Positions 20,580 to 63,056 of a DNA stretch of 64,000 nt are shown piece after piece. The notes under the pieces were generated by a model that had not been told where the DNA came from, ran no database searches, and saw only the letters and a list, made by a program, of their open reading frames with translations. The first letter of the stretch is position 1. Every line of letters begins with the position of its first letter. Position numbers and translations under genes: made by a program. The stretch spans positions 2,976,001-3,040,000 of the forward strand of contig OU612072.1 in the NCBI GenBank assembly GCA_914767715.1, written 5' to 3'. Source of the DNA: Membranipora membranacea (taxonomy: Eukaryota > Bryozoa > Gymnolaemata > Cheilostomatida > Membraniporidae).

Positions 20580-20956
20580 GGAGGAAACCTGTTATTTACT
20601 AGTCATTAACCTGCATGTTATCTTCCAGTGCACATCTCTGTCTAACATTGCTTCTGTGCAATCAGTGTGTGCAGTCAACCCTCTTAAATATTAACAGAGT
20701 GCGTTCAAACATCACAATTTAGAAATCACTGTCTGGAGGTATAGTTATTTTGTATATATGTAAGTCTAGATACTTGTCAGTCTTTTTCATGGCTAATATT
20801 CTGATGTAAAACTTTGTTGCACAACAACGCATAATATCACTATCCTGTTTTACATGATTATACATAGTGTTGCAACGTTGTATAAAAAATAACTTTGTGG
20901 CATTTCTTTTTGTGACTTCCAGGCGATAAGAAGACATTGCTTACACAGAGAGAACC

Positions 20957-37080: not shown

Positions 37081-40000
37081 TTAATGCCTACGCTGCTGGC
37101 GGCTGAGTTGTTGCTGTTGTAGTTCATACTGCTGCTGCCTTGCCTCCCGTGACTGTGAAGGTCTCTGCTGACCTCGAGGTGGCTGATGTGATGCAGGACG
37201 TGACCCCTGAGGCGGCATTGCCGACCGAGGTCGTGACCCCTGAGGCATTGCTGACCGAGGTCGAGGTTGATTGGCCGGTTCGGCGGCTAGTGATGTATAT
37301 GCTGGTGGTTGTGATCGTGTGTCAGCCTGCAAAGAGAAGGAAGAGATGTTATTCTCAAGCGATCAGAATGAGGTGGTGGCTGGTGGGGCTAGAGAAACCA
37401 AACACAAGGCATAATCAGTATAGCAGCTAAGTTTGAGCATCCACAAGTTCATGCCATATGTTATATATATGCAATACATGTTATATATAACATAGGAATA
37501 TATATATATATATAACACAGGATAAAGTTAAACATACAGAACAGCTAACTGCAGGAGCATCATCATAATTATCACAAACAAATAACATAACATAGCATGC
37601 AATGGTGTAGGCCGATTAAGAAGAACCATCACCTTATGAATTACAGCAAACACATATTGACGTACACATTGAGAGTGTGTTGGGTCAACAAATAAATTTA
37701 AACGATCTGCCGAATATAAAGGTGAAGCTTCGTTTATGCAAAAGAGCTACCAATGTTAGACAAGCATTCACAAGTGCTGACCTATAAAGGAACAAAAGCC
37801 CTTTTTAAGAAGCAAAGCATGCAATTTTTGACGCTTTAAGTAATATTCGGCCTTATAGCTTTGTCTAATCCCAGGAAGCAAGCAAAGCTAGGGAGACTGC
37901 TTTAATAGTTTGGCTCATTAACTAGATGAGAGGCATTGAGTATCACATGAAAGTGCCTGCATACTAGAGGCATCTGATGTGCAGACAACATGGTCAGAGA
38001 GCAGACCTAGGACAAAACTGATTTTTAAGTCCATCAATTTTCACTAAAGTGAAAAGTATTTTCTTCTCTGGAATCCATTACAGCAGAGTACTTTGTTTAC
38101 AATGGAGCAGTCATGCTTTGTAGGTACAAACATTCAGGGTTCTGTTTTACATCACATAGCCAGACATGAGAAATATCTCTCTCTCTCTGATGGACCACAC
38201 AAACTGCAGCAGGTTAAGGGGGTTGGTTGGAGGGTTTAGTTTTATTTACCGGAATGTTCATTTGATGGGAGTTTCGTTCTGGTAGCAATGGAGGACCCTG
38301 GAGTGATTCAACAGCATGGAAGATTATAACACAGGAATAATCGAGAAGATATCAGTCTAGCTTTGGTTACAGTGTCGTGGGAGGAGGAAGGGATGGATAA
38401 CATACAGTAGGTCATTTGGTAAAGATTCCGTAGAATGGCCATAATCAATGCGAAGAATTTCAGCTATCTACGCTCTGAACTTCAGTCCTAGTTATTATAT
38501 CGGTCACGTATTTGATTAGAATGATTTAGGAGAATATTTAGAGGTGCTGTGGATCTGTTCAGGTAAGTTGAGTGCACTCTCACATTCTAACTACAGCGTG
38601 AATTAACTGGTGACTAATCATTCAATCATTCCTAATCTCTGAATCTGCTGCAACATAATATGGACTCTCTGGATGTCAGCAAGTCACACACCCACAACAG
38701 AAAAACAGTTTTCAGTTTACTGTCAAGAGTCAAAAGAGTCGTTGCATTATTATCCAATCATTAAGCTACACGGTGCAGCAAATGGATGGCAAGGAACATG
38801 TAGGTGAAAAATTAAAAGTTTGAATCCTTTTTTAATTCTATTGAAAATTACCAAAACAGTCATTTAAGCATGGAGGAAAGCTCCCAAATTCACCACATAT
38901 TATGGAATGATATCACCGCTATGTTATAAAGCTTCACACCCTGAACCCAGAATTAGAGAACACCGACCCAGAGGTGTACAAAAAGGTGTCGTGTACACAG
39001 CTGTCTATATGAGTACCTAGTTTGAGTTTTATAGCGAAGAATCATGGAGCACAGCCTAGAAAGGAATTATCACATGTATGTATACAAATCAAGTCAACAA
39101 CAACAACTTCAGCAATGTATAGATCATATATGGGGGGATGAGCTGATTCCTCCTAAGTGAATTCCCACCCCCTTCTTTGGTTGTCAGGGAATTGCCAGCC
39201 ACAAATCGGAAAGGGAGTTGTAACGCGAGCCGCAGGCTCAAAAGTAGTCTAGCAAAACTACACATACTCAAATGTTGTCCCTGCGCTGTGAAAGATGCGC
39301 TCACCTGACGATTAAATCTTGGCTCTTCACATCAAAGACTATACCCAAAAAATAAGCATTGCATTCCCCATGGTGGAAAAATTGTGCGAAAATTAGAAAA
39401 TCATATAGCATTAGTGAATTTCAGCAAATTATATTGGCTTTGCCGTGTCATCCTTAATGACAAACCTTATTCCCGGAGCTGGTATGATACGACCTAATGT
39501 ACACATATAAGGCATTATATTCTCGATTCCCGCAATCTTCTTTTTCTACATTTCCTAATTTTAATTCTCAGATTCAAGATGTGATTCAAATCGAACCATA
39601 TGGGCCTGATGATTAGCAGAGCGGAGCAGAGCAGATTTTTGCGACGAGAGTAGTCAGAACCCTCTAATTTGAGGCCCTCAGGGATTGAATATTGATGTGA
39701 CAGCTTTGCTGATTGGGCGATTGTAACCACTCACCCAGGCTTCCATACTCATAGAATCCTGTTCATGCCAAGGAGTTACTCCTTGTTTATACTAAATGGT
39801 AAGACGAGCATAACACTTCATACATCACATCGACACCCAAAGCCTCACTAAACCACGCGAAAATATCTACCCTATACCAAGCCCTGAATAATTTGGTAAA
39901 CTTGTGTTACCACTCAGGAAGAAAAGCTGATGTTAGGCAATCAAGCCAATAAGAATATCTGTGTCTTACACTAAGAGTTTTCCAGCCTATGCATAGTTTA

Positions 40001-43000
40001 TAGCACAGTGAATACATTACTGTGACATGAGAAAACCCTATGTTGGGATTGGGGAAATGGGGCTCCTGAACTTAAACTATATTGGTGAAAAACCTAAAAA
40101 CACCAACGGATATACTACATGGCATAATCAATATATTGACACACATGCAATGTGACATATAGGGTTTGGAGGCAGGTATCGGTGACTGAATATACGGCGG
40201 TTCCCATCACTGACAAAGCCTATCATATCGACAAACTAAAAACATACACATTGATATGGCAGTATGATCCAACTTACTCTTTGTTCGGGGGGTCGTCTTG
40301 CACCCCCGCCTGCTTGTCGGCGACGTAATGTGAGAGTTTGGCTAAGTTTTCTAGCCTTTGCTTTCTTAGGATTGGAGCTAGGAGTATGTACTGCGCAGCA
40401 TTTAACAAAGAGTACCATCAGAGCTACGAACCCGATAATACTCAGTGCCACGGCCCACCAGTATACCTGTTAGCATAAATGTGTATACTGTAAGTTAGTC
40501 ATAAAACATTACATCACTGACAGGATTGCCTACCTGCCACATGAGGATAAGGTATGGAGCAATTCAGTTCCAATTTGCCTGCATTTGGAGTTGCTCCTTC
40601 AAGATGGCATAGGCCTACTAGGTAGAACTGGGGCAACCCAAAATGCAGGCAAATTGCATCACACTTGATTTAAATAGTGTATAAACTTTTTTCTCAATAT
40701 AGTGAAGTAAATGTATGTTCCACTATCATTATCAACTTCTGCACCCGGTGTATCAGGGTGTTTGAAGTGATCACATCAACACCCTAGATTTGAAAGGCAG
40801 AGATATCCTCCTTTTCAAATAATTATGATAATATCAGCAAGCTAATTTTTATCGGCATCCAAACTTGATATCACAGCAACTTGAAAAGTGAATGGACTTT
40901 GAATTTCGGGTTTTTGGTTCAATCTTAGACTGATAAGAATCACCTTAGAAGAGTAAATTATTGACAGGAGGAAAAGTTTGTACACGGTTGAACATTTAGC
41001 ATTCAAGCCTAGTTAACATTTACTCCTAAATATGTATGTAAAGTATAGTATATGGAGCTCACCGTGACCCAGTCAGTGACAAGTTGCAGAGTCGATTCAC
41101 TGAATATGAGATCTTTTAGACGAGCTAGTGGACCTTTACCATTGACTAATCTACATTTTTGGAAGTGATCACAGAAGCCTTTCTCCTTATCGCATACATG
41201 ACCTACAAAATAAACTTGTAATCAGCAAGAGATTCATCTGTATAAGTATAAGAGATTCATCTGTATAAGTATAAGAGATTCATCTGTATAAGTTTGCTCA
41301 TACGAGATTCATCTGTATAAGTATAAGAGATTCATCTGTATAAGTATAAGAGATTCATCTGTATAAGTTTGTTCATAAGAGATTCATCTGTATAAGTTTG
41401 CTCATAAGCAAGTGAACCATACGTAGGAGAACAGTTACTCCAAATGGTGGTGCTTCAACAACAACAACCATCTGAATTATTTGACAATATTATAGTGACT
41501 TCTAATCTAGATATTTGGTGATTTGTGTGGTAGTTTTGGACTAGGAACTACTTGTATCATGTCAACTCAGTCTTGTTGAGTTCAGTTTCCCAACAGTTTC
41601 CTTTAGACGTTATAACAATGAGAGAAATTGGATATGAAAATATTCTTACCAGCCAAGTAGGCAATCTTGGTAGTCTCATTAGAAAGGTTCTCTAGCCCCA
41701 GTTTAAAGTCCAGAGGGAAACCATCATCCTCAGAGTTACTTGAGCTGTAGCATTGTGCTGTGGTGTTATCGGGTGGAGCACAGGCTACATGGCACAGTAG
41801 GGTGGGGTCCTCATCGTCCCGTGTTGGCTCACACTCCACCCAGGATTTATCACCAGTCATAATAAGCTCACATATGGATCCCTTGCAATCCTATATAAGA
41901 ATTTAAAAAGAAAGCAAAAAAGCGATCAAAATTTGTGGTTTCAAAAATTGGTCAACAGCTATTGTCTGCAAGACTTCTTTTTTTTCTAAACTAAAATTCA
42001 GAAAAAAGCTTCAAGCAAATTTATAAAGAATCATTGCTTTCAATTTACTGCAACTGATTTGGATATTTTGGCATCCAGATAAAAACGTCCGTTCTAAATT
42101 AGACCCTATCTTCTCACATTGACTTACCCCTTCTTTGCAAACTTGAGTATTTTGATTACACGGCGTATTGTCATCTTTATTGTCTGGTTTAGGACAGGCA
42201 GCCGCACTACCATCACACATAGACTCAGCAGTGCATTCTCCTTCAGAGGCACATTTGGTAGTGGTGTTGTGGTAACCACACATACCATTACAGCATGCTC
42301 CTTGTGACGGATCGCAGACAACTCCTGGAAAATGTCGTCAAATATAAGCACAAAGATTAATGCAAGGGTAAAACGCCAAGCTAAAATAAAACGGTAAAGC
42401 ATCTATGAACTGATATGATCAATTCAAGAAGCCAAATCTACAGAAATCAGTTTGATCCCTTATCAACACTTCATGACAAGCATCTCCCTTCCTCTGATGC
42501 GGTATAGTTTTGAAACCTCATCAGCTGCCTTCTACAGAGTAAGTAATATACAGCTGCAGATAGTACCTTGTCTTAGTTTGCAGGCGTCAGCAAAGTTGTT
42601 CTGGTCATTCTGACCATAACAACATGGGCAGCAGTCCCCGGTCAGACAGTCCTCGGTGTAGCCACAATCACAAACTTCCTCTTCCTCCTTAATCTGATTA
42701 CCGCACCACGCCCCGTCAGACTCTAGAACACATAACAAAATCACAGGCTAACACAGACTTCATTCACTTATTAAGGCGAAATCACTGACCTGGACGAATT
42801 AACAACTCATCCATGCAAAAATGTATAGATAACATCAGAACTATTAGATATGATGTCAGCTAGGCAGGTTGGAGCATATTCTTATTGTTGATTTACCAAA
42901 GTGAAATAGCCCAAGAAATAAAGTCGAGATATGCAATAACGGTTAAAATGAAAGTTTGAATCCTACCTTGGAAGCAGTTTACTTTTCCTGACTGTTCGTT

Positions 43001-46000
43001 GACCACGACTCGTAGTACATCTCCGATTTTTCTGATACTGCAGCTCGAGAAGTTACGATTATTATCTTTGGTTCCCTCAGTTGCACTAGCGAACATGATA
43101 TAGTTACCCTGAGGTGATCCATTATCTGTGAATGGTGTGCAGCTAGGGCTCAATCCCTCTTCATCGTGCTAGAAAGAGCATAGAAGGTATTAGGGCTACA
43201 AAACTGCTATACGACAGTCGGAGAACGATCAGAATAAAGCTGCTCTACGACTATCCAGTGCGTCAAGCATGATCTTACAGTTCATATCATCAGAGATCGA
43301 TCCTTCCATTATACTTCAAAATTTAATGTACACATGCAGTTCGTCATTAAACGAATTTCATACCTAAAATAGTTTTTGTTATTACAAATAATAATTAGAA
43401 GGAAGCTTGGAAATCTACATCCAGGAGCGGGAGAAGACAACAAACTAGCTGTTAATTTTTAAAGATCGGACAGCTACATAGATCGTTCAAGGCCATAAAC
43501 ATATATCATATTACATTATATATACATAACAATTATATATATATAAACACATTATAACGTACCTGTTTATATATATATTTGTAATATATTAGTATGTTCA
43601 TGTTTATAGCAAAGACAAACATGCAGGAGCATAATTGTGCTGACAAGCCTTGCAATCACACATGAGCCAGTCATAAACCACAGTCAAGGAGCGAGATCGT
43701 ACCAGGGGTTTTAGATTCTTTTCCTAATATATGACTTATCTGGAGTTGGAGAGGATAGTGTGTGTCACTATTTTGGTTGGTTGGTTGTGTTTCAAAATTG
43801 ACCAATCAATGTTCACTTCGGAAAACTATTACTTATATGGTTAACACTAAACCTTGACACACACCATTCTTCTCTTAAGATTTACCTGTGAGCCAAAGTT
43901 GTGGCCAAGTTCATGAGCGAAGGTGATCTTAGTGACTAGCGGGGGTACGCGTTTCTGATAATTTTCTATAGTTACTATGCCAGTGTTTAGTGATTTGCTT
44001 TCCGCACCCCCAACAGCAGCAAAAGCTGTATACTCGCTACAGATACCACCTTTATCAGCTGTGGATGGGAAGAGGAAGACAAGGATCGCTTAGAGCATGT
44101 AGCCAGACATAGGTTATAATAACCAGATCTGCTCTGTTCTGGGTTCGTTCAGATTGACATAGCAAAGCTAAAATTAAGGTGAGGAAACAAATCCAAAACT
44201 GAGCAGATATGGTCACTTTGATCAGGGAGTTTGATAGGCTTGTAGCAAGGACAAAGAGCAATGGACAAGCTAGCTGATTGTTAAATCTTTTCCCAGCAGG
44301 CAAGGATTAGCAATTAATTTGTTTAGGATCTTCATCTGCATTAAAACAATTACAGAATTTTGAGCCTGCTGTCTCACACATTCCCTGAGGACAGCTTATT
44401 TTTACACACAATATTACATCATTCTACAAATCGACAGCACTCTACATCTGGAAAACTTGGAATTTGAACCCTCAACCTTGTTGATAAACAAGTTAAGCGC
44501 TTGCAACAAAAATGTGCCAAGCAACATTTCAGCATAAGTTACTCTCCATATTTCATTTTGCATTGTGACTTGCAAAGATCATAACATTTTGCCTGAAAAA
44601 CTAGCGGCATTGAGCCGCACAGTACATCTATAAGTCTCATGTGCCCAATAAATTCATCAAACGCCATGGGATCTTGCGAAGGGACGCTACTCGCTTTTGG
44701 ATTAGCCATTAGCTGTTCTTACTTCCTAATTCTATTTACTGTATTATCTGTATTGTATTGTATGATCGCCAGTGGGCAGAGGAAAGTAGATTATCTACTC
44801 AAACAATGTCAAAGTACTAAAAACAAAACACAGAAGGTTGTCATTCTGTGCAATGCTATCCAGAGGTTGGTTCATGACATACAGGATCACACGCATAAGC
44901 ATGTATCACATGATCATATCACCGAAGACAGAATCGCAGAAGTAGGTGATACTGAGACTGATGTCAATATAGATCAGAGGCAAGAGGAAGACATTGTGGG
45001 AGCTGAAGCTGGTGCAGAAGGTGATCTGAGAAAAGTGGCAGAATGCTATAACAAGGAATACAGTGATAGTATTCGAGTATTGGATCATCTTACTGGTGCT
45101 GCTGAAGAAGGTCTGCAGGAAGCTCCCCCAAATACTCTGAATAAAGATGAGAAGAAGCTACTCTCTATCTGTCACAGAGGCTCGGATATCTCTAATGAAC
45201 CAGGAAGGCTCTCAACTCAACAACCGAAGAGATCAATGGCAACTATGATACAAGAGTATGAGACACAAAGTCATCCTCAATGTCGACCTAAAATATCACA
45301 GAACAGAAAGAGACCAAAGGCATTACAAAAACCCAACATAAAACAGGAGTCCAAGGTACTGAATACTACATGTATTGATTGTGAGGTAAATAACCTGACA
45401 GCAGAGATGAAAAGTGACACAGAAAGAGGCGTCTGGATAAACATGGGGTTCTACCAAAGCCCTGATGGGTATTGCAGAGAAGAATTCTCTCTTCCAACAC
45501 TAGTTGAGGAACAGTCATCCACTGATAATACTCTGCTTTAAATTCTTTTCTTTTTCAAAATGTTGTGAATAAGGCATAATATTTTTACCTGTGTACCTGT
45601 ATTTTCTTGACATTTTGTTATCAAATACCTAAATCATCTACATTGTCCTTTACTTTCTCAACCTTGTAAAAGCTTCACTTCCCTACTGTTTTTCTGTAAC
45701 ATGAAAAATGATACATAATGAAATAATTATATACTATAAGTACCAAAACAAACAATAGTAATTTAATGTTGAATAATGTATATTACAATCTCCGTAAACG
45801 ATTGTTGGTAGATAGAGAGTCAAATACACCGGATGGCTATTCTAAGTCACAACATTTCTCGGAATGGTAACAGTATTCAGCTGTTTTCAAGATGTCAGTA
45901 GCTATGTTTTGATCTTCATTGAGGTATATTGACTTCACATGGCAGCTTTCAAAGCAAACCATTCCAGGTAATCGTTAGATAGCACATCATCATACAAGGA

Positions 46001-49000
46001 TTCAGCCAATGTAACCAAGTCAGCAGACTCAGCACTCATACATCAGTCTCTCCTTGGTCCACTAAACGCAAGGTGAGGTAATTCATTAGCTATAATATGT
46101 GGCTATGCAATAACCGCAAACTTTGGTAACATAGAAAGCCTGTGTCAAGTTATGTACCTCGGACCACTTTCTCAGTAGTGTATGACATATTGTTTCATGG
46201 TTGTGTTGCAGATGGATTCAAGTATGACGATAGCTTTGATTGCATTGAATTCTGTGCTGGCCATAGCCATAGTTGGTGTAGCGGCAGCTATAGAGGTGTG
46301 CCGGTTTAAAATTAGAAAAACTGTTCAGAACAACTCGAGAATCCTGGAGAAGATTGCAAGATATGAATTAGCTATGGAGTATCAGAGTCCAGGTGCCTAT
46401 GTAAATCAACAGAAGATGCCAGAAGCCGGCAAACAGACAAGATACTGACAGTGGGCTAGAAGAGGATTGCAGACTTTCTTTATGAGCCTATTTATATAAT
46501 GTACTCATGTTAAAGTCATATTATTGTATTTACTAACAATACAAGCAAATTCCCCTTTTTTTGTTGCTGAGTAGAAAAAAATAATATGATTAAAAAAGTG
46601 TACTATTTTTTTAATGACACTAATGCAAAATAACCTCGAAAAATGATCTAGATGGCAATAAATGTTGAAAACACTATCATTTGTATTTAATCATATGATC
46701 ATTCTTGAATATCTCAATCAGGCTTTTAGTTTGTCAGCACCAGGCATCCCATCTGAATCATGACGCCCTCAATGTTGTTCAGGTTTGTGATGCCAATATT
46801 TTCTACTGACTAACTTGTCAACATAAGATCCTTCAAACCATACCACATATTATGACCTAGAAGTACTGATATCACAATGTGGCATCTGTCAAACGATGCA
46901 CCACCACATTTTGTTGATGCATTGTTCATCATTCGAGTTTCAAGCCAAGAAGGGGATTAGCTGTGTATTATTACAAGGTAGGATATCTTCCATCCATCAG
47001 CTCAAGTTCTTAACTTAATCTAGTCTTACTCTATGCCTTTCTGTTTTCTATTTGAATTCAGCCAGTTAAAGACTACCCAAAGACCAATGTATATTCTAGT
47101 CAGGCAGTTACTTAGTTATGTCATATTCGCAATCAATGTAAGGTAAGAGGATATTTTTTTAATCAGAGTTGATTGTTCTCTATGCGTTCATGAAGTAATC
47201 AGTTTGTGTCTGGTTTGTACCGTTAGCACCAGACTCGTCACACTGACCCACCAGTGGGCCTATGTGACAAGGCCACCATACCCAAGTAAAACGGCTACTT
47301 CACTTTTTGATTTCAGATGGTTTACATGGATCAAACATACGAGTTTGTGGCGGACATAGGCATATTAGTAATGCTGATGTGCGCTGTTGCAGTACTAGCT
47401 TGGAATTTGTACGGGACTTGGCAAAACTTGATATTAGTTAGAGGAGATAAAGTTATGCTTGAGAGACTTTTGGGTTATATTTGTTCAAGGCCATCAGGTG
47501 ACAACCAAAACAAGAGGCAACATCCATTACCCACAATACCAGAAGCAACAAATGTATGTGTTAAATGCAGATCATCTCTGCAACATCTCCCACAAGACGC
47601 TCATGGTACTGGAGCCAGTATGACCAGGAGCGACATACGCCAAAACAGTCATAGGGGCCGCAGGGTCGAAACTGAAGGCAACAAAATTTTGATCAAAGTG
47701 GACGAGCTTCCAAACAACAAGCATCGACAAGCAGCATGTTTAGCTGCTGGTGCGGCTTTGCCAGAGCGTACCTGGTATGACCTAGTGGGGTCTGAATATG
47801 ACAACCTCTCCTACACTGAAGATAATAATTTAGGCGCCGATATCTCGCCAAGAAGCCTTACAGTACAACAGAGACCAACTACCATTGATGTAAATGTAAT
47901 TAGTGCCGATGGACAGACAGCAAGACATGATGTGATGGAAGTCTGTGTAGCTGCAGCTCACCACTGCAAAAAGTCGAGATCAGAGTATCAGACCAACCGC
48001 TCATCTTCTGGCAAACGTTTGACCACCGTTTAGAGTGAGAACTAACAGGAATATTATTATTTTGATGCGTTGGAGCGCAGATATATTACCCCTACCTGCA
48101 GATAATTTTGATTCAATTATTACAGCCATATTTTTGTGAGTTCAGTTTATTGAGCTGCTGCTTTATTTACCAATATTAAAAAAACAAACTTCATATTAAC
48201 CAGTGAAGGCCGCCCTTATCAAGTTTTCATCAGTGCCACCCAACGCAAAATTGCATAACCGCCCCATAATGGCATCAGGTAGAGACATAATCATCAATAC
48301 AAATAGGTGCATTTTGTACAATTAAATACCACTAAACAGCAGGGACATTACACCTCTATGGCTGATGTCTTCAATAGGTTTAAGTTTTGTAGATCAAGAA
48401 TAGTGGTTGCGAAATTTCAACAACCCTACTAGATTTTTTGGACTTTAGTTTAATTACTGAAAAATTATTTATTTTAAAATCAATGCACCTAATAAGTCTT
48501 CATTTATTATGACTATGTTATGAATAAAGGTTACGAATTTCATTTCATATTCTTGTTATATCACAGTATAAACGTAGTGGGCTCATCCTAGCTAGACCAT
48601 CATTTTGTAGGTAAAGTTGTAGGTACTCTGTGATTTTGCATGGCATCGTCTGGTAATTTGAGGCATTATGACAAATAATACTATTACATTCAACCATCAA
48701 GAACATCTTACAAATGGAATGGTTGGAAAGGATGGTTGCTGATTCGTTGGATCGAGCACTGGCAAACAGTGGAATTTTCTGATAATGCAATATCTGTCCA
48801 GGTCCGTAGTCTATCTCTTACTTTTAGGAACCCCTTGCCGCCTCCTTATTAGAAGATTATGATGACTGCATAGTTTTGACATGCACAGTAAGGGTACGTA
48901 CGAACATGTCAAGGTTGTGTTTTGATGTCTGTTAACGTCACATACTGATCATCAGCACCTCTGTTTTGACTCTGATGTTTGCCATCTACTTATGTTCTTT

Positions 49001-52000
49001 GCTTTTGTTAAGCTGCAGAGAAGGGGTTTATTTTTTTTTTTATCTTACTTCATTCTTTGAGGCTGATCTAACATGGAAAGTGAGTATCATGAGGTCTATA
49101 ACCATTCGCTTTTGCACAAATCATAGTTTAGCAGTTACTATTGTAAATAAATATTGGCTAAAGTGTGTACACTAAATGTTTTTTACATAGTTTCATACCC
49201 ATGAGTATTCGAGTCTAAAAAAGTATGTGTGACCATATGACAGAACTTTTCAGTGAACACTCTGTAATTTGTCTTTGCCAAAATTACGGATTAAACTGAA
49301 TCTTAATCTTAGTTTTAAATTAGTATTAATTAGAGTTAAGGTTTTACCTGGTGACGGAGATCAAAAACTTATAGCAAATTTGCTTTCTTGCAATGCCTGA
49401 TATTGTCCCGCTACTTTTGTCTAGCCTTTGACAGATTATTGGGAACATTGTTAGCTATTATAATAGCATTGAGTATGGCAGTTATAGCTATGGTAGCTAC
49501 CTTCTGCTGGGCCGTTAGAGCCATAAAGCGTACAAACAGTACCACGAGGTCGGAGATGGAAATGATTAAGTCATCACTGCAGGAAGAGTTAGACCATGTC
49601 AAGCTACTTCTGAGTCACCATGTTCCAAATCTACCCACACACAATCACAGGTACAATAATATCTCTGACGGTAATAACTTGATAGCAGAGCTCCACAATA
49701 AGATTACTCAGATTGCGAGATCAACTAACTCTGAAGCCTAGAAATAACACATTTAGGAGATTGTTGTGGACACTACCAACCTTTGATGCCTCAATGCTTA
49801 TATGTGATAATTTGGTTGCTTTACAGTTCGGTGTTCTCAGGCTCAAACGAGAAACTCACCATACCTTATCGCATTCTGACTGATGCATCATGAGCTTTTC
49901 TTGTGTATATTTTTGTATCAAATAGGCAAAGAGCCACTGTCTTGCAAACGGAGACGAGTTTAGTCAGTATGCAAAAACGGTTGAAGAAATATGGGGGCTT
50001 CAATAATGAAGCATACAATGAGGCGAAGTCTGCTACGGACAGGGAGTACTATCTGAGAACACCACCTAGAGATGTCATGGCAAAAACTACTAAAAGAGAC
50101 TTTGAAATGTTCGGGTCTGAACCCGATAAATGTGAGGGAGAGAAAGCGCCTGCAGCAACAGGGGTAGGTGAATATGACCCACATTTGTCTACGAACAGTT
50201 CAGAATAGTGATTCAATATAAATCATTGGGGTTCAAAGTTCATGGTCGCTTTCTTAGCTAGCGCAGGAAGAGGAAAGGTTGATCATCATAGTTACACCTA
50301 TCTTTACTTGCTTTTCAGCTCAGCCATATCAGCCCATCAAGAAGAGGAAGTGAGGGTTATTATGACGTAATCAATGAATCTGAAATGATTAGAGCAGCAA
50401 CAGCAATCAGCATGAGGACAGCAGCAATGACAGATCAGCACTCGAGATCACACAAAGAGCCGCTGTCTGTTACGGCAGCACCATCCAGTACATCGGCAGT
50501 ACTTCCAACGATAGTGGATGACGAGGATGCTTATGTTCCGGCAGACGAAGAAAGAGGTGTATATCTTAAGCCAGCGCCTTGCAGCTCCAACACAGAACCA
50601 GCTTACAGTGGGTATATGAGGATGGATAGCTTTAGAGGAGAGGATCATTATACTAGTATGACTGAGTATGAGGGAAGTACGACCAACGCAGGTCAACAAA
50701 AGAAAGAAAAATCAGTTGTGGACCCAGCTAAGGAATAGTGCTAATATTTTACAATGGAAAATCCATGACAGTTCAATGTATCTCAAACCGCCTTTTTTGC
50801 ATCTTTTGAATCATAATACATCACACTCCTGTAGCGCAACTTTAGCAACATAAACACAATTCGAGTAAATACATTCTCTTGATCTAACAGACCAGTCCCG
50901 CAATCATTGAGCAGACACGATTTAGGTAATAGATGATTTTAGAATCTGGCAGAGCAACAGTAGGTAGGAAGAGAGACAATAAAGACACCTCCACCACCAG
51001 AGAGCAATCACAAGTAGCCTAGTCAGTAATTACATGCACATTCCAATTGCCTTCCTATCTATTGAACAAAGCCATAATTGTTTCCACAAGATGACAGTTC
51101 GCGTAATCTGGCAGAAGAGGCAGAGCGACAATGCTGAGCAGCGGTACCATAGCATTTGGAACAGCTATGATTTAACAGTCCACCAACAGCAGCATGAGAC
51201 ATGCAATAATCTAGCAATCAGCTGTAACAAAGAAGGACATTATTGGCTGACACCAGGAGAGGAATAAGCTAATCAGCCAATCAGCATGGAGGAGCAGCAG
51301 CCGTGCGGAACTCACAGGCGATCCGAAGTTATGTCCAATCTCGTGAGCCAGTGTGATGTAGGACACACGTGGTGCTACTTTCTTCTGATAGTTTTGGAAT
51401 GTGACTATACCGGTATTAAGACTACGGGTTGTTTTGACACGCTGCCCTCCTACTTCTTCCGTGACAGCCCCATTTTGATCACAAACTCCACCCTTTTCTG
51501 TTAATCATCACACAATTTTTATACTGTTTTTACTTGCGTAATAATTAAAATAGCTATAGGAATTCTAAGAAAAGTTACCATCAGTTTCAAACATGGTTCC
51601 ATTTGACTAGCATTTAGGCTACACAACAGTTATAATCTGGAAGGTCAGATGAGCATGGTATTACACAATCGGTTGTTAGTAGACCTAGCTACATCCAATA
51701 AACTCATCTCCCAAGTGCACTTAGTAAAACAATTTTTTGTCGCCAAAGTCACTGCATGAGATTGGTACCACAAACCATGACCATTGTTTTCAAGGGTTAA
51801 AATCAAACAGGTAACCAGCTGGCAGCTGTTTATGTGTTGAAGAGCAAACTTGGCAATGCAATAGATTTTTTCTATTACAGGCCCAGTTTGCTCTTCAACA
51901 CATAAGCAGCTGCCACTCATAATACCTCTTATAATCCAAAACAGCATGGTCACACTTACTATCTAGATATTAGCAGAAAATCGAATGAATTATTGAAAAG

Positions 52001-55000
52001 GGTGCATGTGTACTTACTTCCAGGTTCAGCTACCCACGCTAGACCCAAAGTTCCTCCCTCAAAATCTCGATATGTGAAGATATAAGCGAGACAGTAGGCA
52101 TCGTGGTTGTTGTACGAGTTGATATTCAGCAGATTACTGGCATCTATAGCTGAGTTACAGAGTGTGTTAGTTTGACACTCATTTGTGTTTAGACAGTCGC
52201 AAGTTTGATCCACCTAAAAAGAAAACTGGGTGTTAGATTGGAGTTGCAGACCCAGTCATGTCTTGATTCAACATTGAATAAAATAAAGCACAATGTTTCA
52301 GTGGGCGGTTTGATTTATGATAATCAAGGAAAATAATGCATTCTTGGGAAAATCTCATGGAAAACATGTACCGGATAGCACCACAGTGGTGTAGTTTTAA
52401 GCAAGTATGTACCCAACAACACATCAGACAACTTCCCACAGCCACCAATATTCAATGCGGTTTCCCTGTATCAATTTATTGTTTAAAAATATAAACAGCC
52501 ATTTTTGTTATTTTAACAATTACCAGAACTCGGTCTATCCTGAATCCAAACTGTCTGTAGCTCTGATCAAAGCCATCCTTGAATGTGTGACTTCTGAAAA
52601 TACCATCTACCTCCTTCACATGAGAGTAGAATAGAGAAGTTATCATGTCTCGAATCTGTACATCATCAGCCTATCAAATCAAAAAGAAATGAGATAAATG
52701 TACACCCCATTCTGGCAGATCAGTTGTGTCATAAAATTAGTTAATGCTTTTGAAAGAGGAAGAAATATTGACACAGTTTACGTTATCTAGCAGATCTTAA
52801 ATATTCAATTCCCTAAAAAGTATGCTTTGTTACAATGTCATAACGCTGAATCAAGTATTTAGTCTCTTAATTTTGACTAATGATTAGGATATAGCAAACA
52901 ATAGAACAGGGTAAAGAGGTAAACAAATTTTAGTACAGTACAGAACACTTCAAAGGTCATCTTTAACTATCTCAAAGAAGTACTACCTTACCCCTAATGT
53001 CATCATCCAAAATAAGATCAAGCAATTAGGAACAGAAAGAAGATCAATTAAAATAGGTCAGCCAAACTAGCCAATAAAATCTCCTAAATACACATTCCTG
53101 GGATAACTTAGTCTGAGCCCCCCCCCCCCCCGCCCGACGGCCCCCGGAAAATTGATTTACACTTCCCTGTTTTGAATGTGTATCATAATACTTTTTTCTC
53201 AAAAGGTTGTACATCCAACACTACAGCTCATATCAACACAGCAGAGAAATTTTTCAAAAGATATTTGATCACAGTAACAGCATGGAGTTGTTGTAAATCA
53301 GTCCTGTTATATAAAATGCAGAATTAAGTTGTAAGTCTCGAAAGTTGTAAGTCTCGAAAGTTGCAAGTCTCGAAAGTTGTAAGTCTCGAAAGTTGTAAGT
53401 CTCGAAAGTTGTAAGTCTCGAAAGTTGTAAGTCTCGAAAGTTGTAAGTCCTTTCAACAATCTCTATTCTCATCAGTGGTATGAACAAGGAATTACCTGAG
53501 GGTTGGTTTTCTTAAAATATGTCCACAGCTCAGGATCACCTTGTAGAAAAAGATTACATGTGGTACGGGTATTAGTCTGTCTCTTATCCCGAGAACTATA
53601 ACCATTACTCTCCGCTGTGTACAGGTCATGACCAGCTCTGTGTGAGTAACGCTTCTGCAAAAAATAAAAACAATCGGTGTTATTTGAAGCTGCCCATAAG
53701 ATATATAACGTCAAGGCTTAAACCCACTTAGAAAATAACAAATATAGTCCCCTAGAGAAGTTATGTGTTTGCAGGAGGAAAGTTTCACCATTTTGCTCAT
53801 CACTTTATATAGACTTCTGCCTCTGCGAGCTAAAATATAGTGTTAGCCTACATGATGTAGTAAACCCAGAACTAGGTACATCAATTTAATTTACTTCTCT
53901 GGGAACGAGCACTATTATTATCATCTCACTTTTTAAGAGTAGTCCTCTCTATGTCAATGAGCAAACAACTCCCAAAACAGCCAGCCAAATATCCTCATAC
54001 GACACTCTCTGCTCGCACCAATCAGAGTGGTAACAGTGCATAAGCTTAGCAATATTGCTGGTGATAGAATTCCATCAAGAGACATTGACCAAGGTATCTG
54101 AGACATATGGATGCACTCAGTGACCAAGCCTTACAGCTATCATCACAAGTTTAATTTGACCACATAAATACACTGGTAATGCATATACCTCATAAATAGA
54201 TGAGCTCCTTATTTCTTCCATCCACTCATGGTTGGCGTCATTTCCACAGAATTCCTTACTAGAATCTGCTGAGCGACGCGCACGGATATCTCTACAAATT
54301 ACAAACAGAGGATAGTGATTACATTGTGTCACAAGCTACTATCATCTGCTTGATGTGCAAATCAAGTGGTCTTATGGGATTTTAATGTTATGCAATCTGC
54401 ATAGACAGCAAAGCTTCCTAATTTCACTTTGACCTTACAGGCACTAGGAATAGTTGCTCACAGTGAGTGGTGTGAAATGAGAACAAATCAACTGCTGCTC
54501 TGTCAAAAGGCTTATGTCAAACTATTTATTATAATTGTCAAGGATGCTCAGATAACCTCAACCAAAGAACACTATGTGACTACATCATATTCCATCAACA
54601 TCAGCTGATAAAATATGAAGTAGCCAGCATGAAAACAGAGAAGAATCCTAACCTAATCCTTTAATTCCATGCTTCCCTGCCAAATTTAGTAAACTTTCAC
54701 TCGGTCTAACTTTTAGTGCTGAATTTAACTTGAAAAGGTAGCCAAGCAGTAGAAAACTTTGGTTAATTAGTTGGATCACAGCCAGTTTTTTACCTCCTCT
54801 TCTCAAACCCGATGTTTTCTATGTAGACAGTATTTTTGGGCTACAACTTTGAAGACGTTTGAAGACTGCCTATCATGCGAATTTCACGCGTTATTTCCCA
54901 TACTGAGAAATAATTAGGCCTATGTGTTTGTGCATTAGAATTGTTATATTGAGGAGGTTGTGTGATGTCTTCAACAGGCAGGACTGTCAGAAGCCAATCA

Positions 55001-58000
55001 CAGATCTAACTTACGCAAAGAACTTCTCTACGTCCACATGATCGTCGTTGTAGATAACTGAATGTATGTGGTCTTTACCGCTGAGATCTGTGTTGTCCAG
55101 ATAATGTGATTTACGCTCAATCTGATATTTATCTCCACTTGAGAGCTCTAATCTTCCCTCAAATATGCCATCTATTATAGCACCATGTACCTGACTACCT
55201 GCGTCACCTGAAAATTTAAATCAAATCAAATTTAGTACCATCACACATTCTGTGCCATCTGTTGGACTACATGAAATGAAGTTGTAGATAAAGAAGAAAG
55301 GTTATTCCTGGTGAAGGAATCTCCCATTTATGTATAGGCCTAAATTGATATTATTTTTCGTTACTTGTGATGTAGTTAGAGTGGTCCAAGGGGGTTCTTC
55401 ACACCACCCTTGAAATACTCAAACAGATGTTGGGAGGAGCCTAGCAATCATGACATGGTCTAGACAAAGCATGTAAATTTATTTGTACTTAAATTGAAGA
55501 AAAAAAACAATAGATATATGCGGAACACTAGGTTACTTGAATAATATAACTCTATACGTCTATTTCAGTTTGAAAATTGCTCAGAAAAGTACACCTAATC
55601 TAGATCTAAACCTGAATAGAAGGCCTAAGTCTGTCTGTGTAAGCCCTCCAAGTATTATAACATTGTGTAATTATAAGAACTCTTTGACACAAATATCAAG
55701 AAGTTCCTTATTATAAAGTACCCTTGATATGACATTACACTGTCACAGATACTCTGATACATTGACGCTGTCACATCCAACATTACAATGACGTGTGAAT
55801 GTCACACAATATTTTTATTAGTCACCATGGTCCAAATTCAAAACCTATGAAATTGATAGGCATTGTCATGTGATTTCCACAGACTGTAAATTTTTATTAA
55901 TGTTCTAAATAAAACTGTGTGGGACTTGCACAACCAAGCCATGATAAGTGCATCGCCAATGTTTGGTAACACACATAGCATGGCTTGGTTGTGCGATTAA
56001 TCAGTTTTCTATCGTATCACATACTATGAACTCCGCCACTTGGTTGCTTTCAGACTGAGTCTGGTAACATACCTTCTATGTGACCGATAAATATATGTGA
56101 TGTGTCTAATTTTTGTTGCTTTCCCTTAAAGTCGATGACAGCTTCAGGGTGGAATATCCTACTCTCCGAGTCTGGGTATAGAAGGAGAGGCAGAGTCCTA
56201 TAAATAAAAATAACAAAACAATGAATCATCAGAATAAAAAACGCTGTGTCATCCTCACTGATCTGACAGGAGCCATTCAGTGACATTAGATCTATTCTTG
56301 TCCTTATTCCTCTTTACCTAATCTCTTACTTAATCGCTCATTTCTCATCTGACTGTCGTCACAAGGTAGCTGGAATCAAATCATACAAAAAGGCCAGAAG
56401 ATCACAAGATCAGTTTTCCCCATAGGGCATATCATGCAAAGGTAACCTGCAGAAATGTGTGAATGTTATCTTAGATAGTCCATAGATTAAGAGATGATAC
56501 AATAACACAAGCATAGTATTAGGCCCGAAGGACCAAGGATAGCATGAGAAAACATTTAATTCTTGCATGACTCAACCAAACTTTGAGGCTTTTGAGTCAG
56601 GGTCAATAAAAATATCCCCACTATCATTCCAAATTTACAATTATCGATTCTAATTTAATTTATAGTTCACTCATCAATCAGAATACCTTTATAGATAAGG
56701 CCAATCCTGAACAAACCAATTGAAGACAGTGTCTTGCCTATCAAATTAGGCGGGTCCGAGTTTGGATATTTGAACATAATTGTTTTGATGCCATAAATAA
56801 AATGACTATGTGGGCCAGTATAGCCACAACTCTATAGGCTAGTATATTCACAATGTATCTTAGGTCTGTGATACAGTGATAGAGGAAGCAATCGTCTTAT
56901 CCACAAAGTTAAATACTCTCACAGCCTTGGCCTGACTGACATAACAGTCCTATCCATCAATCAAATGATGATAGACATACTTAGTGAGGTATATAAGGGT
57001 ATATCCTCACCCTGTGAGAGGCTATCTATAGTGACATGTTTTGACGTATTTAGGGTTTGCACCATAATTTGGAATGAGGACACCTCTAATTATTGAGATG
57101 AAGTGTTGAATAATTATTGTTGTCTAACTCTAAACAACAGAGATAGGCACTAGGGCAGATCAGAGTATGATTATATCAATGCGTCATTAGGGCGATTGGT
57201 GAGCATCACAAGCTTCATAGAGTAAAAAATGAGATTCTAGATAGGGGCGACTGGATAAAGTGTCAATTGTGATGAGGAGAACAGACTTAGTAGGCCACTA
57301 CGAAAACTAATTCATAGCACTGCAGCTAGAAGATGACTCACACTAAATCGTATATGAGTCGACTGCAGTGTTTTTTCTATGGTGCAAGGATGCTGGTACC
57401 AGGCACACTATATATTCCATAGGACTAGCCTACTAAGACCTGCACAAACATAACACCAGATTTGGTATGTATATCAACTAAGGGGGTTTGATTAGGTATC
57501 ACAAACCGTAACCTACCAGTCTATTATAATCCCGATCTGATTTACTTATGCTAAAAGCGTCATCTCTGAGAGTGTTATGAATAATATAACTAAATATGTA
57601 TGAATTCCTGAAGGTGAATAATGAGTAACCTATTTTCAGCTGCCGTACATCATTCACAAATTCTGACGTTATATCAGGTAGTTGTCTGTCTTGCTACACA
57701 TCACTGCATAGCTGTTATATGATAATTACCCAGGGTCAACAGTCTAACTCAACCCAATCCCAAGCTATAAGCAGGTCATCAAACCTCACACGAGATGTGG
57801 GCAGAGATTAATGATATAATAACCTCACTCAATAGTATAGACCCACCTCTATGGGTAGGCTCTAATACCTAGAGGCGTTTCACACTAAGTAGCCATTAGG
57901 ACATGAATTAAACCACCAGTCCTCTTGGGTAGGCCCTGCAACTGTTAGTTCATTCACACACTGACAATGTATACCATAGACTTAATATACTATACATATA

Positions 58001-60007
58001 TTAAGTCTAGTAAGTAGTTAGTACTATTATGACATGAACCTACCTGCCGTCTGCTGTGATATTGAATGATATGACTTTGTCATATACGGATCTTTTGGAC
58101 CTTAAATGTCTCTCTCGTAATAAATCCTGACTGTAATCTAACGAATCATAATGTCCAATATGGTCTGTCAGTCTGAGTCCATCTACAACACAACAGACAC
58201 AGGGTTATTACACTGTGAGCCTTAAGTTAATGTGAGTGGCATCTGGTAGTAGAGTAAAGGCTTTACCAGGCACCGAGTTTGTCAGACAAACAACTTTTTG
58301 TACTATGCTCAATATATAAAAATTTCTTAATGCATGCTTAAACACTGATAAATAAAAAATCTTGTGTGTAGACCTTAGACAGAAAACAGGACACCACATT
58401 AAAGAATACCTATCAATATGCACAGGTACATCTTGTCCTCTTATTTGAGGGTAATCAAAGTCATTGACGTAACACCCAGGCAGGGCCAGCAGCACGAGAT
58501 AACACCAACAGTACAAGTACAGTGTTTTATGGTGGAGCTGGGTAAATAACACAGCATAGATAAGGGCCTGACTAGCAGTGTATCTCACAGATAAGTACCG
58601 CTCCAGTATTCTTATTCTGTGAGATTATTCTCAATATACAAGCCTCTGTTTGCTCATTGATGAGAGATAAAGTGCAGTCCTAGAGATAACACTATTTCCT
58701 TGACCAACGCAACAGGGTAGCATGCTTTTCATGAACAATGGAAATTTTTGGGTGGAGCACTCAAAATTTGAACATTTATGACATTGGTCCTACTTATGTT
58801 AAACTATCACGAGATCAAGTAATTTAAATTTATACCAGGCCTAGCTTCAATACGTCAATGTAACAATCAGAATGTCTAGTTTGGCTTCAAAGCAATCATT
58901 ATATGCAGTAAATTCTCAATTTTGTTAACTCTGGGCAAACAAGATAGGCAGATTGAGTAATTCATGTTTGTTCCGTTTTATACCCCAGTCCACTACAGAG
59001 ATGTAAAATTTTGATATATTCTGCAATTCAGTACTTCATTTTTATGTCATGTACAAGCAATTGTCCCCTTTTCCACCAATCTCATTGTCCCACCTACTGT
59101 GTAACAGGGTAGTATATAACTCAGTTAATATCAGAGCAAGCATTTCAATTAACGAAATACATTATTTTACTACCAGAATAAAGGTACTAGATGATCATCA
59201 TGACTACATGCCCCCTTAAAACCCTGATACGTTTTAATAGAATTGCAGTTTTCGAAGACTCTCACATTGCCAAAACGGTTTCTAATTCCACTAGATTGTT
59301 GTAGTGGCCAGCCTGGCACTGTTGTACCATAGGAAAAAATAAACTCTTTCATAGATCATACCAGACACAAACCTGCTGCCTGACATGTTACAATGAAATA
59401 CCGCAACCAAAATATTGATAGAGTTCAACCCAAAGATATGTTTACAGTCCCAAGGACTCAAGGTTCAAACACAGAGCTGGCAGATAAATCTGTGAAGGCC
59501 AAACTGGAAGCCTACAACTAGGGTCAGTAGTCGCTAGTAGTTCATGTTAGTCCCTTTAGCGCAGTGTAGGTCAAGACATACTGATTAAATAATAAGATGA
59601 TGCTATCATTATCAAACTCATATTTGTTTGTGGAAAATAATCATTACAGAATCTATAGATAGTCCTAAATATAAAATGTTGTAACTGTTGGAGCTGTTGT
59701 TATTGGACCTGGTCAGTCAAGGTCGTGTCCAAATTTTGGGCAAAGCACATATAAGCTTATGAGACAAAGAACATCCCCCATGCCATTCCCATGAGAAGAA
59801 GGATATGTTAAATATATTACAGCAGTAGACTGAGTAACAATAAGTAATTTATTTGACTTTCTATTCTTATCAATTACCATCAATCAATCATATATATACC
59901 AGCCAGTCCAATGAATATCAATTACTAGTAACAATACAATACTTACCAATAAGTTGAGTTAAAAATATGTTGAGCAGAAATACAGAGGAAGGAGTGCTAT
60001 ACCACAT
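37081..60007 (-). CDS. ADAM10: ADAM10 (Kuzbanian-type) membrane metalloprotease
   Basis: Sixteen exons in one transcript form, 891 or 888 residues: 60007-59947, 58182-58044, 56197-56073, 55207-55015, 54291-54189, 53654-53496, 52670-52524, 52213-52018, then 51497-51316 OR 44058-43886, 43168-42967, 42722-42567, 42324-42128, 41890-41650, 41202-41063, 40466-40278, 37326-37081. Order: signal peptide (MWYSTPSSVFLLNIF), prodomain with a furin site RDKR (229-232), reprolysin domain with HEIGHNFGSP-H (426-436) and NYIM Met-turn, disintegrin/Cys-rich region (CDCGYTEDC, CDGSAAACP), GPLARLK stalk, membrane segment (748-770), CCAVHTPSSNPKK, an RRR motif, and a Pro/Gln tail with PPAY (817-820) overlapping YTSL. 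These match ADAM10, the sheddase of Notch and many receptors; those substrates are family knowledge. The tail is longer than in vertebrates. Large introns carry other genes and repeats. It starts head-to-head with YY1. Confidence 0.96.
37327..40277. other. ADAM10 last intron, about 2.9 kb
   Basis: No gene or clear mobile element seen on either strand; short TA runs near 37460-37515. Frames such as 39089-39304 (-) have no support. Confidence 0.5.
41220..41405. repeat. Tandem repeat in an ADAM10 intron
   Basis: Units of the type AGAGATTCATCTGTATAAGTATA repeat about seven times, alternating with a longer form that ends in GTTTGCTCATA. No coding sense; intronic. Confidence 0.85.
43886..44058 (-). 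other. ADAM10: ADAM10 alternative catalytic exon 9b
   Basis: 173 nt, same phases as 9a (1 in, 0 out), acceptor CCACAG, donor CAG|GTAAAT. Encodes DKGGICSEYTAFAAVGGAE, SLNTGIVTIENYQKRVPPLV and AHELGHNFGSQ. Clearly homologous to 9a, strongest from SLNTGIVT onward, with different residues in the first half and at the position before the third zinc His (Gln instead of Pro). All catalytic residues are kept. Confidence 0.93.
44639..45541 (+). CDS. Single-pass membrane protein TM1 (adaptor-like), nested in ADAM10
   Basis: Uninterrupted frame of 300 residues in the ADAM10 intron, opposite strand. Starts MCPINSSNAMGSCEG, with a glycosylation site NSS in a very short outside part. One membrane segment follows (residues about 17-43, LLAFGLAISCSYFLILF...), then SGQRKVDYLLKQC and a long polar tail of about 250 residues. 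The tail is acidic near 95-130, then rich in Lys/Gln/Ser. Tyr motifs include CYNKEYSD and GFYQSPDGYCREEF. The layout matches the next three genes. No family recognised. Upstream ATG context is fair and a second ATG (residue 10) is possible. Whether a spliced leader exists is not clear. Confidence 0.7.
   Translation: MCPINSSNAMGSCEGTLLAFGLAISCSYFLILFTVLSVLYCMIASGQRKVDYLLKQCQSTKNKTQKVVILCNAIQRLVHDIQDHTHKHVSHDHITEDRIAEVGDTETDVNIDQRQEEDIVGAEAGAEGDLRKVAECYNKEYSDSIRVLDHLTGAAEEGLQEAPPNTLNKDEKKLLSICHRGSDISNEPGRLSTQQPKRSMATMIQEYETQSHPQCRPKISQNRKRPKALQKPNIKQESKVLNTTCIDCEVNNLTAEMKSDTERGVWINMGFYQSPDGYCREEFSLPTLVEEQSSTDNTLL
46212..46448 (+). CDS. Small membrane protein TM2 with a YVNQ motif
   Basis: 78 residues. 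The ATG stands directly after a splice acceptor (TGTTGCAG|ATGG). A matching donor (AAG|GTGAGG, exon end 46072) implies a non-coding first exon and a 139-bp intron. After MDSSM comes a membrane segment (TIALIALNSVLAIAIVGVAAA), then the juxtamembrane Cys and basic residues EVCRFKIRKT, and a short tail with YELAMEYQSPGAYVNQQ. YVNQ fits the YxN site bound by the Grb2 SH2 domain. This is the layout of transmembrane adaptors such as LAT or NTAL: tiny outside part, membrane helix, juxtamembrane Cys, phosphotyrosine motifs. The family tie is inference from architecture, not sequence identity. AATAAA at 46657-46662. Confidence 0.66.
   Translation: MDSSMTIALIALNSVLAIAIVGVAAAIEVCRFKIRKTVQNNSRILEKIARYELAMEYQSPGAYVNQQKMPEAGKQTRY
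47317..48033 (+). CDS. Membrane protein TM3 with YDLV/YDNL motifs
   Basis: 238 residues in one coding exon. The ATG again follows an acceptor directly (TGATTTCAG|ATGG), and an upstream donor (AAG|GTAAGA, exon end 47142) gives a 174-bp leader intron, the same gene plan as TM2. MVYMDQTYEFVAD is followed by a membrane segment (residues about 14-32, IGILVMLMCAVAVLAWNLY) and a tail with WYDLVGSEYDNLSYTEDN near residues 154-171. YDNL is a YxN-type Grb2 site. Two Cys pairs (CVKCRSS and others) lie in the tail. AATAAA at 48523-48528, about 490 bp after the stop. Cytoplasmic signalling adaptor is the best guess; no homologue is recognised. Confidence 0.72.
   Translation: MVYMDQTYEFVADIGILVMLMCAVAVLAWNLYGTWQNLILVRGDKVMLERLLGYICSRPSGDNQNKRQHPLPTIPEATNVCVKCRSSLQHLPQDAHGTGASMTRSDIRQNSHRGRRVETEGNKILIKVDELPNNKHRQAACLAAGAALPERTWYDLVGSEYDNLSYTEDNNLGADISPRSLTVQQRPTTIDVNVISADGQTARHDVMEVCVAAAHHCKKSRSEYQTNRSSSGKRLTTV
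49073..50738 (+). CDS. Membrane protein TM4 with YxxM motifs, four exons
   Basis: Rebuilt exons: 49073-49079 (ATG GAA A|GTGAGT), 49425-49650, 49926-50163 and 50319-50738, phases 1, 2, 0, 296 residues. METFDR is followed by a membrane segment (LLGTLLAIIIALSMAVIAMVATF), CWAVRAIKR, a short helical stretch (MEMIKSSLQEELDHVKLLL) and a long tail. The last exon is packed with Tyr motifs: GYYDVINE, DEDAYVPADEE, RGVYLKP, EPAYSGYMRMDS, HYTSMTEYEGS. YMRM and YTSM fit the YxxM sites bound by PI3-kinase p85. Like TM2 and TM3, the start codon lies at the first splice junction. The tiny first coding exon explains why no ATG precedes the membrane segment in the main frame. AATAAA at 50978-50983. Function by layout: phosphotyrosine scaffold at the membrane (inference). 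Confidence 0.74.
51316..51497 (-). other. ADAM10: ADAM10 alternative catalytic exon 9a
   Basis: 182 nt, entry phase 1, exit phase 0, acceptor AACAG and donor CCT|GTGAGT. Encodes GGVCDQNGAVTEEVGGQRV, SLNTGIVTFQNYQKKVAPRV and AHEIGHNFGSP. It joins in phase to exon 8 (ending GGA A) and exon 10 (starting CAC GAT, the third zinc His and Asp). Its SP ending matches the usual ADAM10 HExGHNFGSPHD. Confidence 0.93.
53329..53450. repeat. 16-bp minisatellite in an ADAM10 intron
   Basis: About eight units of GTTGTAAGTCTCGAAA, one with C for T, starting about 45 bp inside the intron from the exon 6 donor. Each unit contains GTAAGT on the plus strand, antisense to the gene. Confidence 0.93.
56198..58043. 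other. ADAM10 intron 2, about 1.85 kb
   Basis: No gene or well-defined repeat seen. A CATACTATACATATATTAAG-type palindrome lies near 57980-58010. Confidence 0.45.
58183..59946. other. ADAM10 intron 1, about 1.76 kb
   Basis: No supportable coding sequence. The minus-strand frame at 58588-58208 lacks motifs and splice support. Confidence 0.45.
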
Positions 60008-60430
60008 CTCTATTCTGTCAAAGCCTTCCTCTTGATAGGTTATACCACTGTTCAAAACCGAGAACTTGGTGTAGACTTCAAACTAAAACTTGACAAGTGC
60101 AAAAAGTTTATTGTTTTCCTGGTGAGAAGTGTTTAACTGCAATATGAGAAACAGGTGTTTCCGGTCTTGTTTATCAGTAATGAATTTAAAAGCAAAAATA
60201 ACCTATAGATGTGTTTCCGAGATTTACCTGGAGAAAAATTACTCAGTGTGTGTATTTTATAATAAAAGAGGAATTATTTGAAATAAAATTATTTTTCTGC
60301 AGGAAACCATGTTGCCTTTAGTAATAATATTCATTACAAAATCGTACTAGCCTTTTTTAGCACAGTAATGTATCGTAAAAGGGTCACGTGATAACAAGAT
60401 GCCGGAAATGCACTTTCGCTTTGTTCAAAA
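60008..60430. promoter_or_regulatory. Head-to-head promoter region of ADAM10 and YY1
   Basis: 423 bp separate the two start codons on opposite strands. Near the YY1 start are an ETS-type GATGCCGGAAATG (60399-60411) and AAAATGGCTG over the YY1 start codon, which resembles the YY1 consensus AAnATGGC. A GGTCACGTGAT stretch (E-box CACGTG) lies at about 60381-60391. No TATA box is evident. Such an arrangement suggests a shared bidirectional promoter, perhaps with YY1 feedback (inference). Confidence 0.5.

Positions 60431-63056
<2,626 letters not shown>

Follow-up and report, generated by a model that had tools for sequence, protein, structure and literature searches.

Whether a single gene for the sheddase ADAM10 can be spliced to carry either of two active sites is the question raised by a 64,000-nucleotide stretch of the genome of the bryozoan Membranipora membranacea (assembly GCA_914767715.1, contig OU612072.1, positions 2,976,001 to 3,040,000 of the forward strand; hereafter the window). 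How one enzyme, ADAM10, deals with many substrates is an open question in the field. ADAM10 is described as taking a leading part in Notch and Eph/ephrin signalling (PMC4885070). The window very probably holds a single ADAM10 gene in which two versions of exon 9, here called 9a and 9b, are mutually exclusive, with the reading frame enforcing the choice and two active-site variants as the outcome. If so, the paired active-site cores in an otherwise identical protein would be a natural experiment on substrate choice by a one-exon swap, and regulation of the sheddase would sit at the catalytic exon, beyond expression, the prodomain or partner proteins.

The gene was found on the minus strand from approximately 58.2 to 37.1 kb of the window. 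Fifteen coding exons were identified when exon 9 is counted once, all with GT-AG introns and in-frame joins up to a terminal stop at 37081. The start-codon exon (exon 1) was not located, and the protein lengths given below exclude it. Pfam matches above cut-off were obtained for Reprolysin_2 (99.4 bits, cut-off 27), ADAM10_Cys-rich (36.8 bits, cut-off 28) and Reprolysin_5, while Disintegrin fell just below its cut-off (33.5 against 35.1). The closest solved structures to the gene product were those of human ADAM10 (283 bits), followed by ADAM17 (143 bits), and the compared parts of exons 8, 10 and 12 showed 70, 52 and 42% identity to human ADAM10. The hybrid proteins with 9a and 9b matched human ADAM10 structures with E values of 1e-26 and 1e-27 and ADAM17 with about 2e-15 and 1e-16, respectively. 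Judged from these matches, the gene is of the ADAM10 type by its protease, disintegrin and cysteine-rich domains and by its best match to human ADAM10. Two scanned collections, one of prokaryote genomes and one of viral contigs, gave no relative, an outcome to be expected when the gene is from an animal.

Exon 9a (51316..51497, 182 nucleotides, encoding GGVC..SLNTGIVTF..LAHEIGHNFGSP) and exon 9b (43886..44058, 173 nucleotides, encoding GGIC..SLNTGIVTI..FAHELGHNFGSQ), both on the minus strand, were delimited by splice sites, frame and homology. They are placed between two constitutive exons of the same strand, exon 8 (52018..52213, NHDAYCLAY..LGLAWVAEPG), which was located by splice sites, frame and a match to the human ADAM10 structure, and exon 10 (42967..43168), which was located by splice sites and frame; the intron between 9a and 9b (44059..51315) is 7257 nucleotides long. 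Each copy enters at phase 1, leaves at phase 0 and has GT-AG sites, and the two lengths are three codons apart. With a slash at each boundary, exon 8 ends at 52018 with one base over (..CCTGGAA/gtaagt), 9a reads cag/AAAAGG..TCGCCT/gtgagt, 9b reads cag/CTGATA..TCACAG/gtaaat and exon 10 starts at 43168 on a codon boundary (ctag/CACGAT). The preliminary description of this DNA had given the same exon limits, lengths, phases and neighbour joins, and these proved exact to the base.

Joined models showed that the order 8-9a-10 was open to the natural stop (870 amino acids) and so was 8-9b-10 (867 amino acids). The model with both copies, 8-9a-9b-10, stopped at the 24th codon of 9b and the model with neither, 8-10, stopped after two codons. 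Either one copy or the other is thus the only productive outcome, as had been proposed beforehand. The same frame arrangement could serve to tune the amount of ADAM10, where double inclusion or skipping would give messenger RNA (mRNA) targeted for decay, or reading on from 9a into its intron, which is open for 34 further codons, would give a truncated product. The early stops of both wrong combinations fit such a role, but a poison exon needs no whole active site kept for long and each single choice here is fully coding, which makes this explanation quite improbable.

Both exons encode the GGxC cysteine, a loop, the SLNTGIVT strand and a helix with HExGHNFGS, the last of which was correctly attributed to each exon in the preliminary description. 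The first two zinc histidines and the catalytic glutamate lie within each exon (HEIGH in 9a, HELGH in 9b), while the third zinc histidine and the Met-turn are supplied by exon 10, which begins with that histidine (HDEE) and contains NYIMFA. Both forms therefore have the complete zinc motif HExxHxxGxxH (HEIGHNFGSPH with 9a, HELGHNFGSQH with 9b), followed by NYIMFA, which was taken as the Met-turn and has its methionine 24 residues past the third zinc histidine. The motif and the Met-turn spacing agree with those given in PMC4885070. The two forms diverge most in the loop between the cysteine and SLNTG, which is 19 residues long in 9a, against 15 in 9b and 12 in human ADAM10, and in strand and helix residues behind the zinc. 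The proline of 9a and the glutamine of 9b beside the third zinc histidine had been singled out earlier as a distinction between the forms. The difference is present, but the emphasis on it was too strong: the residue is also proline in human ADAM10, is glutamate in ADAM17 and is glutamate, serine or glutamine in paralogs of the same genome, so that by itself it is unremarkable.

The homology claimed for the two exons was borne out by tblastn, in which 9a and 9b were 59% identical with an E value of 1e-17, and the next-best match in the window had an E value of 1.4 for 9a and 0.66 for 9b. The pair thus showed all three sequence features by which mutually exclusive exons are recognised, namely similar length, matching splice-site type and frame, and homology. 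In the protein alignment 34 of 56 residues were identical. At codon positions 1, 2 and 3 the copies agreed at 37, 45 and 15 of the 56 codons, 24 of the 34 identical residues used differing codons and only 4 of 19 shared fourfold sites agreed. The nonsynonymous divergence (dN) was approximately 0.29-0.34 and the synonymous divergence (dS) was saturated. Unconstrained simulations with an equal number of DNA changes, 20,000 from each copy, never retained 34 identical residues; the best in each set kept 27. The codon usage score was above zero in the used frame (0.31 per codon for 9a and 0.12 for 9b) and below zero in both of the others. Preservation of the protein against randomised synonymous sites shows that both copies have been under selection, and by this sequence record for a long time. 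A doubling produced by assembly error, or by two haplotypes placed in tandem, was rejected on the nucleotide identity of only 58% (97/168) between the copies; the window also has no N, the locus lies inside a 27-Mb contig and nothing was found in favour of an artefact of this kind, which is hardly credible.

For the other 14 ADAM10 exons, tblastn found no credible second copy within the window, and exon 9 alone is doubled. Their best second matches had E values of 0.009 to 0.07 and were an acidic repeat, a proline/glutamine-rich match and stop-containing or short stretches; the top one (E 0.009) was exon 13 against the acidic repeat at 7.9-8.0 kb. Exons 2-8 occur once each upstream of 9a and exons 10-16 once each downstream of 9b. 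A DNA search that skipped very common words placed 9a at one position in the 339-Mb assembly. These counts bear on whether 9a could be left over from another ADAM10 gene, tandem or partial, with flanking exons, a promoter or a poly(A) site of its own, as the preliminary description had itself considered when it asked if 9a ends a truncated gene copy. Several ADAM10-like genes do exist in the genome, and exons with such paired features are not always alternatives of one transcript: the 94 found in a fly test were divided among 65 potentially mutually exclusive, 21 multiple-promoter and 8 multiple-poly(A) clusters (PMC3228551), the latter two classes accounting for 29 of the 94. Here, however, the joins of 9a to exons 8 and 10 are in frame, the window has no credible second copy of any other exon and the further scored matches of the exon 8-10 protein in the genome lie at distant loci, which leaves a separate gene a most improbable source of 9a.

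The distant loci were recovered with the exon 8-9b-10 protein as query, which matched at least 16 places in the genome, this gene accounting for four and six further ADAM10/17-like loci (C6:19.99M, C6:7.29M, C6:3.19M, C6:19.20M, C8:2.54M and C11:15.75M) for 12. By tblastn against 9-20 kb fetched per locus, exon 9 was single at each of the six, although at C6:3.19M it was in two pieces, and at C6:19.99M it was one unit with identical boundaries and phases. Since the six paralogs have a single exon 9, the doubling arose from one ancestral exon, and of the seven genes examined this is the only one to show it. As for its age, 9a and 9b shared 34 of 57 residues with each other and 30 of 54 and 30 of 55, respectively, with human ADAM10. 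The divergence between the copies is thus about that of each from human ADAM10, which suggests that the exon 9 duplication is old. Pairwise scores of the two exons to human ADAM10 were near equal (149 and 144), while the paralog at C6:19.99M scored 181 with 9b and 119 with 9a. The loci at C6:7.29M and C11:15.75M, on different contigs, were closely similar to each other, and the latter is apparently damaged (HNLES for HNLGS, DYDCGW for DCDCGW and GNNIM for GNYIM), perhaps as a decaying duplicate.

We propose that an old duplication inside ADAM10 copied the exon for the post-GGxC loop, the SLNTG strand and the zinc helix (HExGHNFGS) and that each mature mRNA would hold 9a or 9b, never both and never neither, both copies being spliced. 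The reading frame would enforce the choice at the protein level, as double inclusion or skipping leads to an early stop, and the wrong products would be targets of nonsense-mediated decay. The choice itself would probably fall to RNA-binding regulators that act on the introns flanking 9a and 9b. The outcome would be two ADAM10 enzymes with a common prodomain, disintegrin part, membrane anchor and tail and with differing protease cores, which may differ in substrate preference or activity.

Three known ways of enforcing exclusion were considered. Steric exclusion was rejected because the spacing of 7257 nucleotides between 9a and 9b is too long, and U2/U12 incompatibility was rejected because the donors of exon 8 (gtaagt), 9a (gtgagt) and 9b (gtaaat) are ordinary GT-AG sites. 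Docker-selector RNA pairing was examined in three intron pairs with three shuffles each. The strongest candidate, which pairs the intron following 9a with the one preceding exon 10, did better than all but 1 of 500 local shuffles; it was not unusual against whole-intron shuffles and is not claimed. Steric block and U2/U12 incompatibility were seen in 5 and 57 of 629 human clusters, and neither is required (PMC5740500).

Several results weigh against the proposal of a mutually exclusive pair. No positive splicing mechanism was seen among spacing, site type and intron RNA pairing, and the best intron pairing was matched by 3 of 36 whole-intron shuffles. The exon-9 tree (8 rows, leaving out C11:15.75M, which nearly copies C6:7.29M but is damaged, and C6:19.20M, which lacks the first half of the exon) did not group 9a with 9b under two models and had no supported branch; forcing 9a and 9b together cost 2.4 log units (p 0.061), so that their grouping was neither supported nor firmly rejected. 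Finally, the splice-site scores disagree on which copy is stronger and give no clear default exon. By a matrix from the gene's other acceptors, the acceptor of 9a scored 4.6 and that of 9b 1.5, while 9b had 15 pyrimidines in the 17 positions before its acceptor against 7 of 17 in 9a, and its donor scored 8.7 against 3.0.

The pyrimidine-poor acceptor tract and low donor score of 9a could mean that one exon lies dormant though preserved and that ADAM10 is made with the other alone. Comparably weak sites were found elsewhere in the gene, however, as at the exon 14 donor (0.9) and the exon 15 acceptor (-5.1). Both exons also keep their frame, splice sites, cysteine and zinc residues, together with the 34 shared residues at a saturated synonymous distance that no unconstrained simulation retained; recent disuse is still compatible with this record. 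A dormant copy is unlikely on balance, and alternative use of 9a and 9b remains the preferred explanation.

A possible source of regulation for the alternative pair was sought in splicing-factor motifs. Eight patterns were counted, with expectations from the window rate, and TGCATG alone was followed up; we take it to be the Rbfox-type hexamer. Rbfox sites downstream of an exon promote the inclusion of that exon. Two TGCATG (51033..51205, minus strand, starts at 51205 and 51038) were located in the first 300 nucleotides of the intron after 9a (expected 0.10, nominal P 0.005) and two (43333..43625, minus strand, starts at 43625 and 43338) in the intron after 9b (expected 0.24, nominal P 0.025). 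For the four flanks combined there were 4 against 0.62 expected, with a nominal P of 0.004 before correction for the eight patterns. The long 9a-9b intron has a third TGCATG further in, and elsewhere in the gene the motif was found three times in intron 15-16 and once each in introns 10-11 and 2-3. As regulators of the pair, the TGCATG sites are a lead and not a result.

Compared with known systems, the 9a/9b pair resembles the frame-incompatible mutually exclusive pairs of PMC3228551 and PMC5740500 in that the exons are adjacent and homologous, with similar length and the same phases and splice type, either one being open and both together out of frame. What sets 9a and 9b apart from those pairs is that they encode the greater part of a membrane sheddase's catalytic zinc site. 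The difference in length is within the default tolerance of 20 amino acids used by Pillmann, Hatje, Kollmar and colleagues, who in a control on the fly X chromosome found such features in 0.56% (90/16,180) of exons not spliced in this way (PMC3228551). In the human set, 377 (60%) of 629 clusters have frame-incompatible lengths; 83 of the 377 had joining reads, and other regulatory mechanisms are inferred there for 484 clusters (PMC5740500). The main text of PMC5740500 does not contain "ADAM10" or "metalloprotease", that of PMC3923563 does not contain "ADAM" or "kuzbanian" and that of a 2017 review on ADAM10 regulation (PMC5355436) does not contain "splic-", "isoform" or "exon". Splice-made forms of an ADAM protein are likewise described for ADAM12, where the variation differs in being a three-residue prodomain motif with no swap of a catalytic exon (PMC3792144). 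The present gene is like vertebrate ADAM10 in its Reprolysin and ADAM10 cysteine-rich Pfam matches and its closest solved relative, and unlike it in having two versions of the active-site exon. To our knowledge, vertebrate ADAM10 has a single active-site exon. The insect ADAM10 is known as Kuzbanian. No report of a mutually exclusive or duplicated exon in ADAM10 or kuzbanian was found among the titles and abstract starts listed for the open-licence literature, which is weak evidence.

A wider reading would make this ADAM10 a splice-switched protease. An ancient exon pair would give two cores that differ in activity or in the substrates they prefer; the cell type would determine which is used, possibly via the Rbfox-like sites next to both exons, and tasks such as Notch activation and other shedding would be shared out between the two forms. 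This is conceivable but somewhat doubtful, and we put it forward tentatively.

The remaining exons of the gene, all on the minus strand, were placed with the same joined model. The first coding exon found, exon 2 (58044..58182), encodes prodomain, and exons 3 to 7 (52524..56197) encode the remaining prodomain, the sequence RDKR, which is presumably a furin-like motif, and the start of the protease domain (exon 3, 56197-56073; exon 4, 55207-55015; exon 5, 54291-54189; exon 6, 53654-53496; exon 7, 52670-52524). Exons 11 to 15 (40278..42722) encode the disintegrin, cysteine-rich and transmembrane parts, the transmembrane stretch being recognised by eye (exon 11, 42722-42567; exon 12, 42324-42128; exon 13, 41890-41650; exon 14, 41202-41063; exon 15, 40466-40278). 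The last coding exon, exon 16 (37081..37326), encodes the cytoplasmic tail and the stop codon.

Other features were also observed in the introns. A near-perfect foldback with 35-nucleotide arms, 94% complementary, was located at 51820-51915 in intron 8-9a. On the ADAM10 transcript strand it had a folding energy of -69.4 kcal/mol (z -12.6) and none of 200 shuffles was as stable. It had no further copy in the 339-Mb genome by a DNA search that skipped very common words, and no Rfam family at gathering score; its five sub-threshold matches were microRNA precursors. The foldback is a candidate intronic microRNA or hairpin RNA. Inside the 9a-9b intron, the plus strand has stop-free frames of 314, 240, 148, 128, 104 and 89 amino acids (44597-50735), several of which by eye have one hydrophobic stretch and a polar tail. 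The 314-residue frame is longer than any in 200 resampled introns, where the maximum was 190. The five antisense frames that were tested had no Pfam family above cut-off; the frames probably represent one or more nested genes. A short array of ACTTATACAGATGAATCTCTT-like repeat units was found at 41230-41400 in intron 13-14, near the exon 14 acceptor.

Outside the ADAM10 gene, a zinc-finger gene was found on the plus strand at 60395-63053, which we assume from its finger sequences to be YY1-like. It lies near the 5' side of ADAM10 and points away from it, so the two genes may share a divergent promoter. A cytochrome P450 gene, presumably CYP26-like, was located on the plus strand at about 20930-28631, and fragments of a reverse transcriptase like that of long interspersed nuclear elements lie within its span on the opposite strand at 26.1-27.7 kb.

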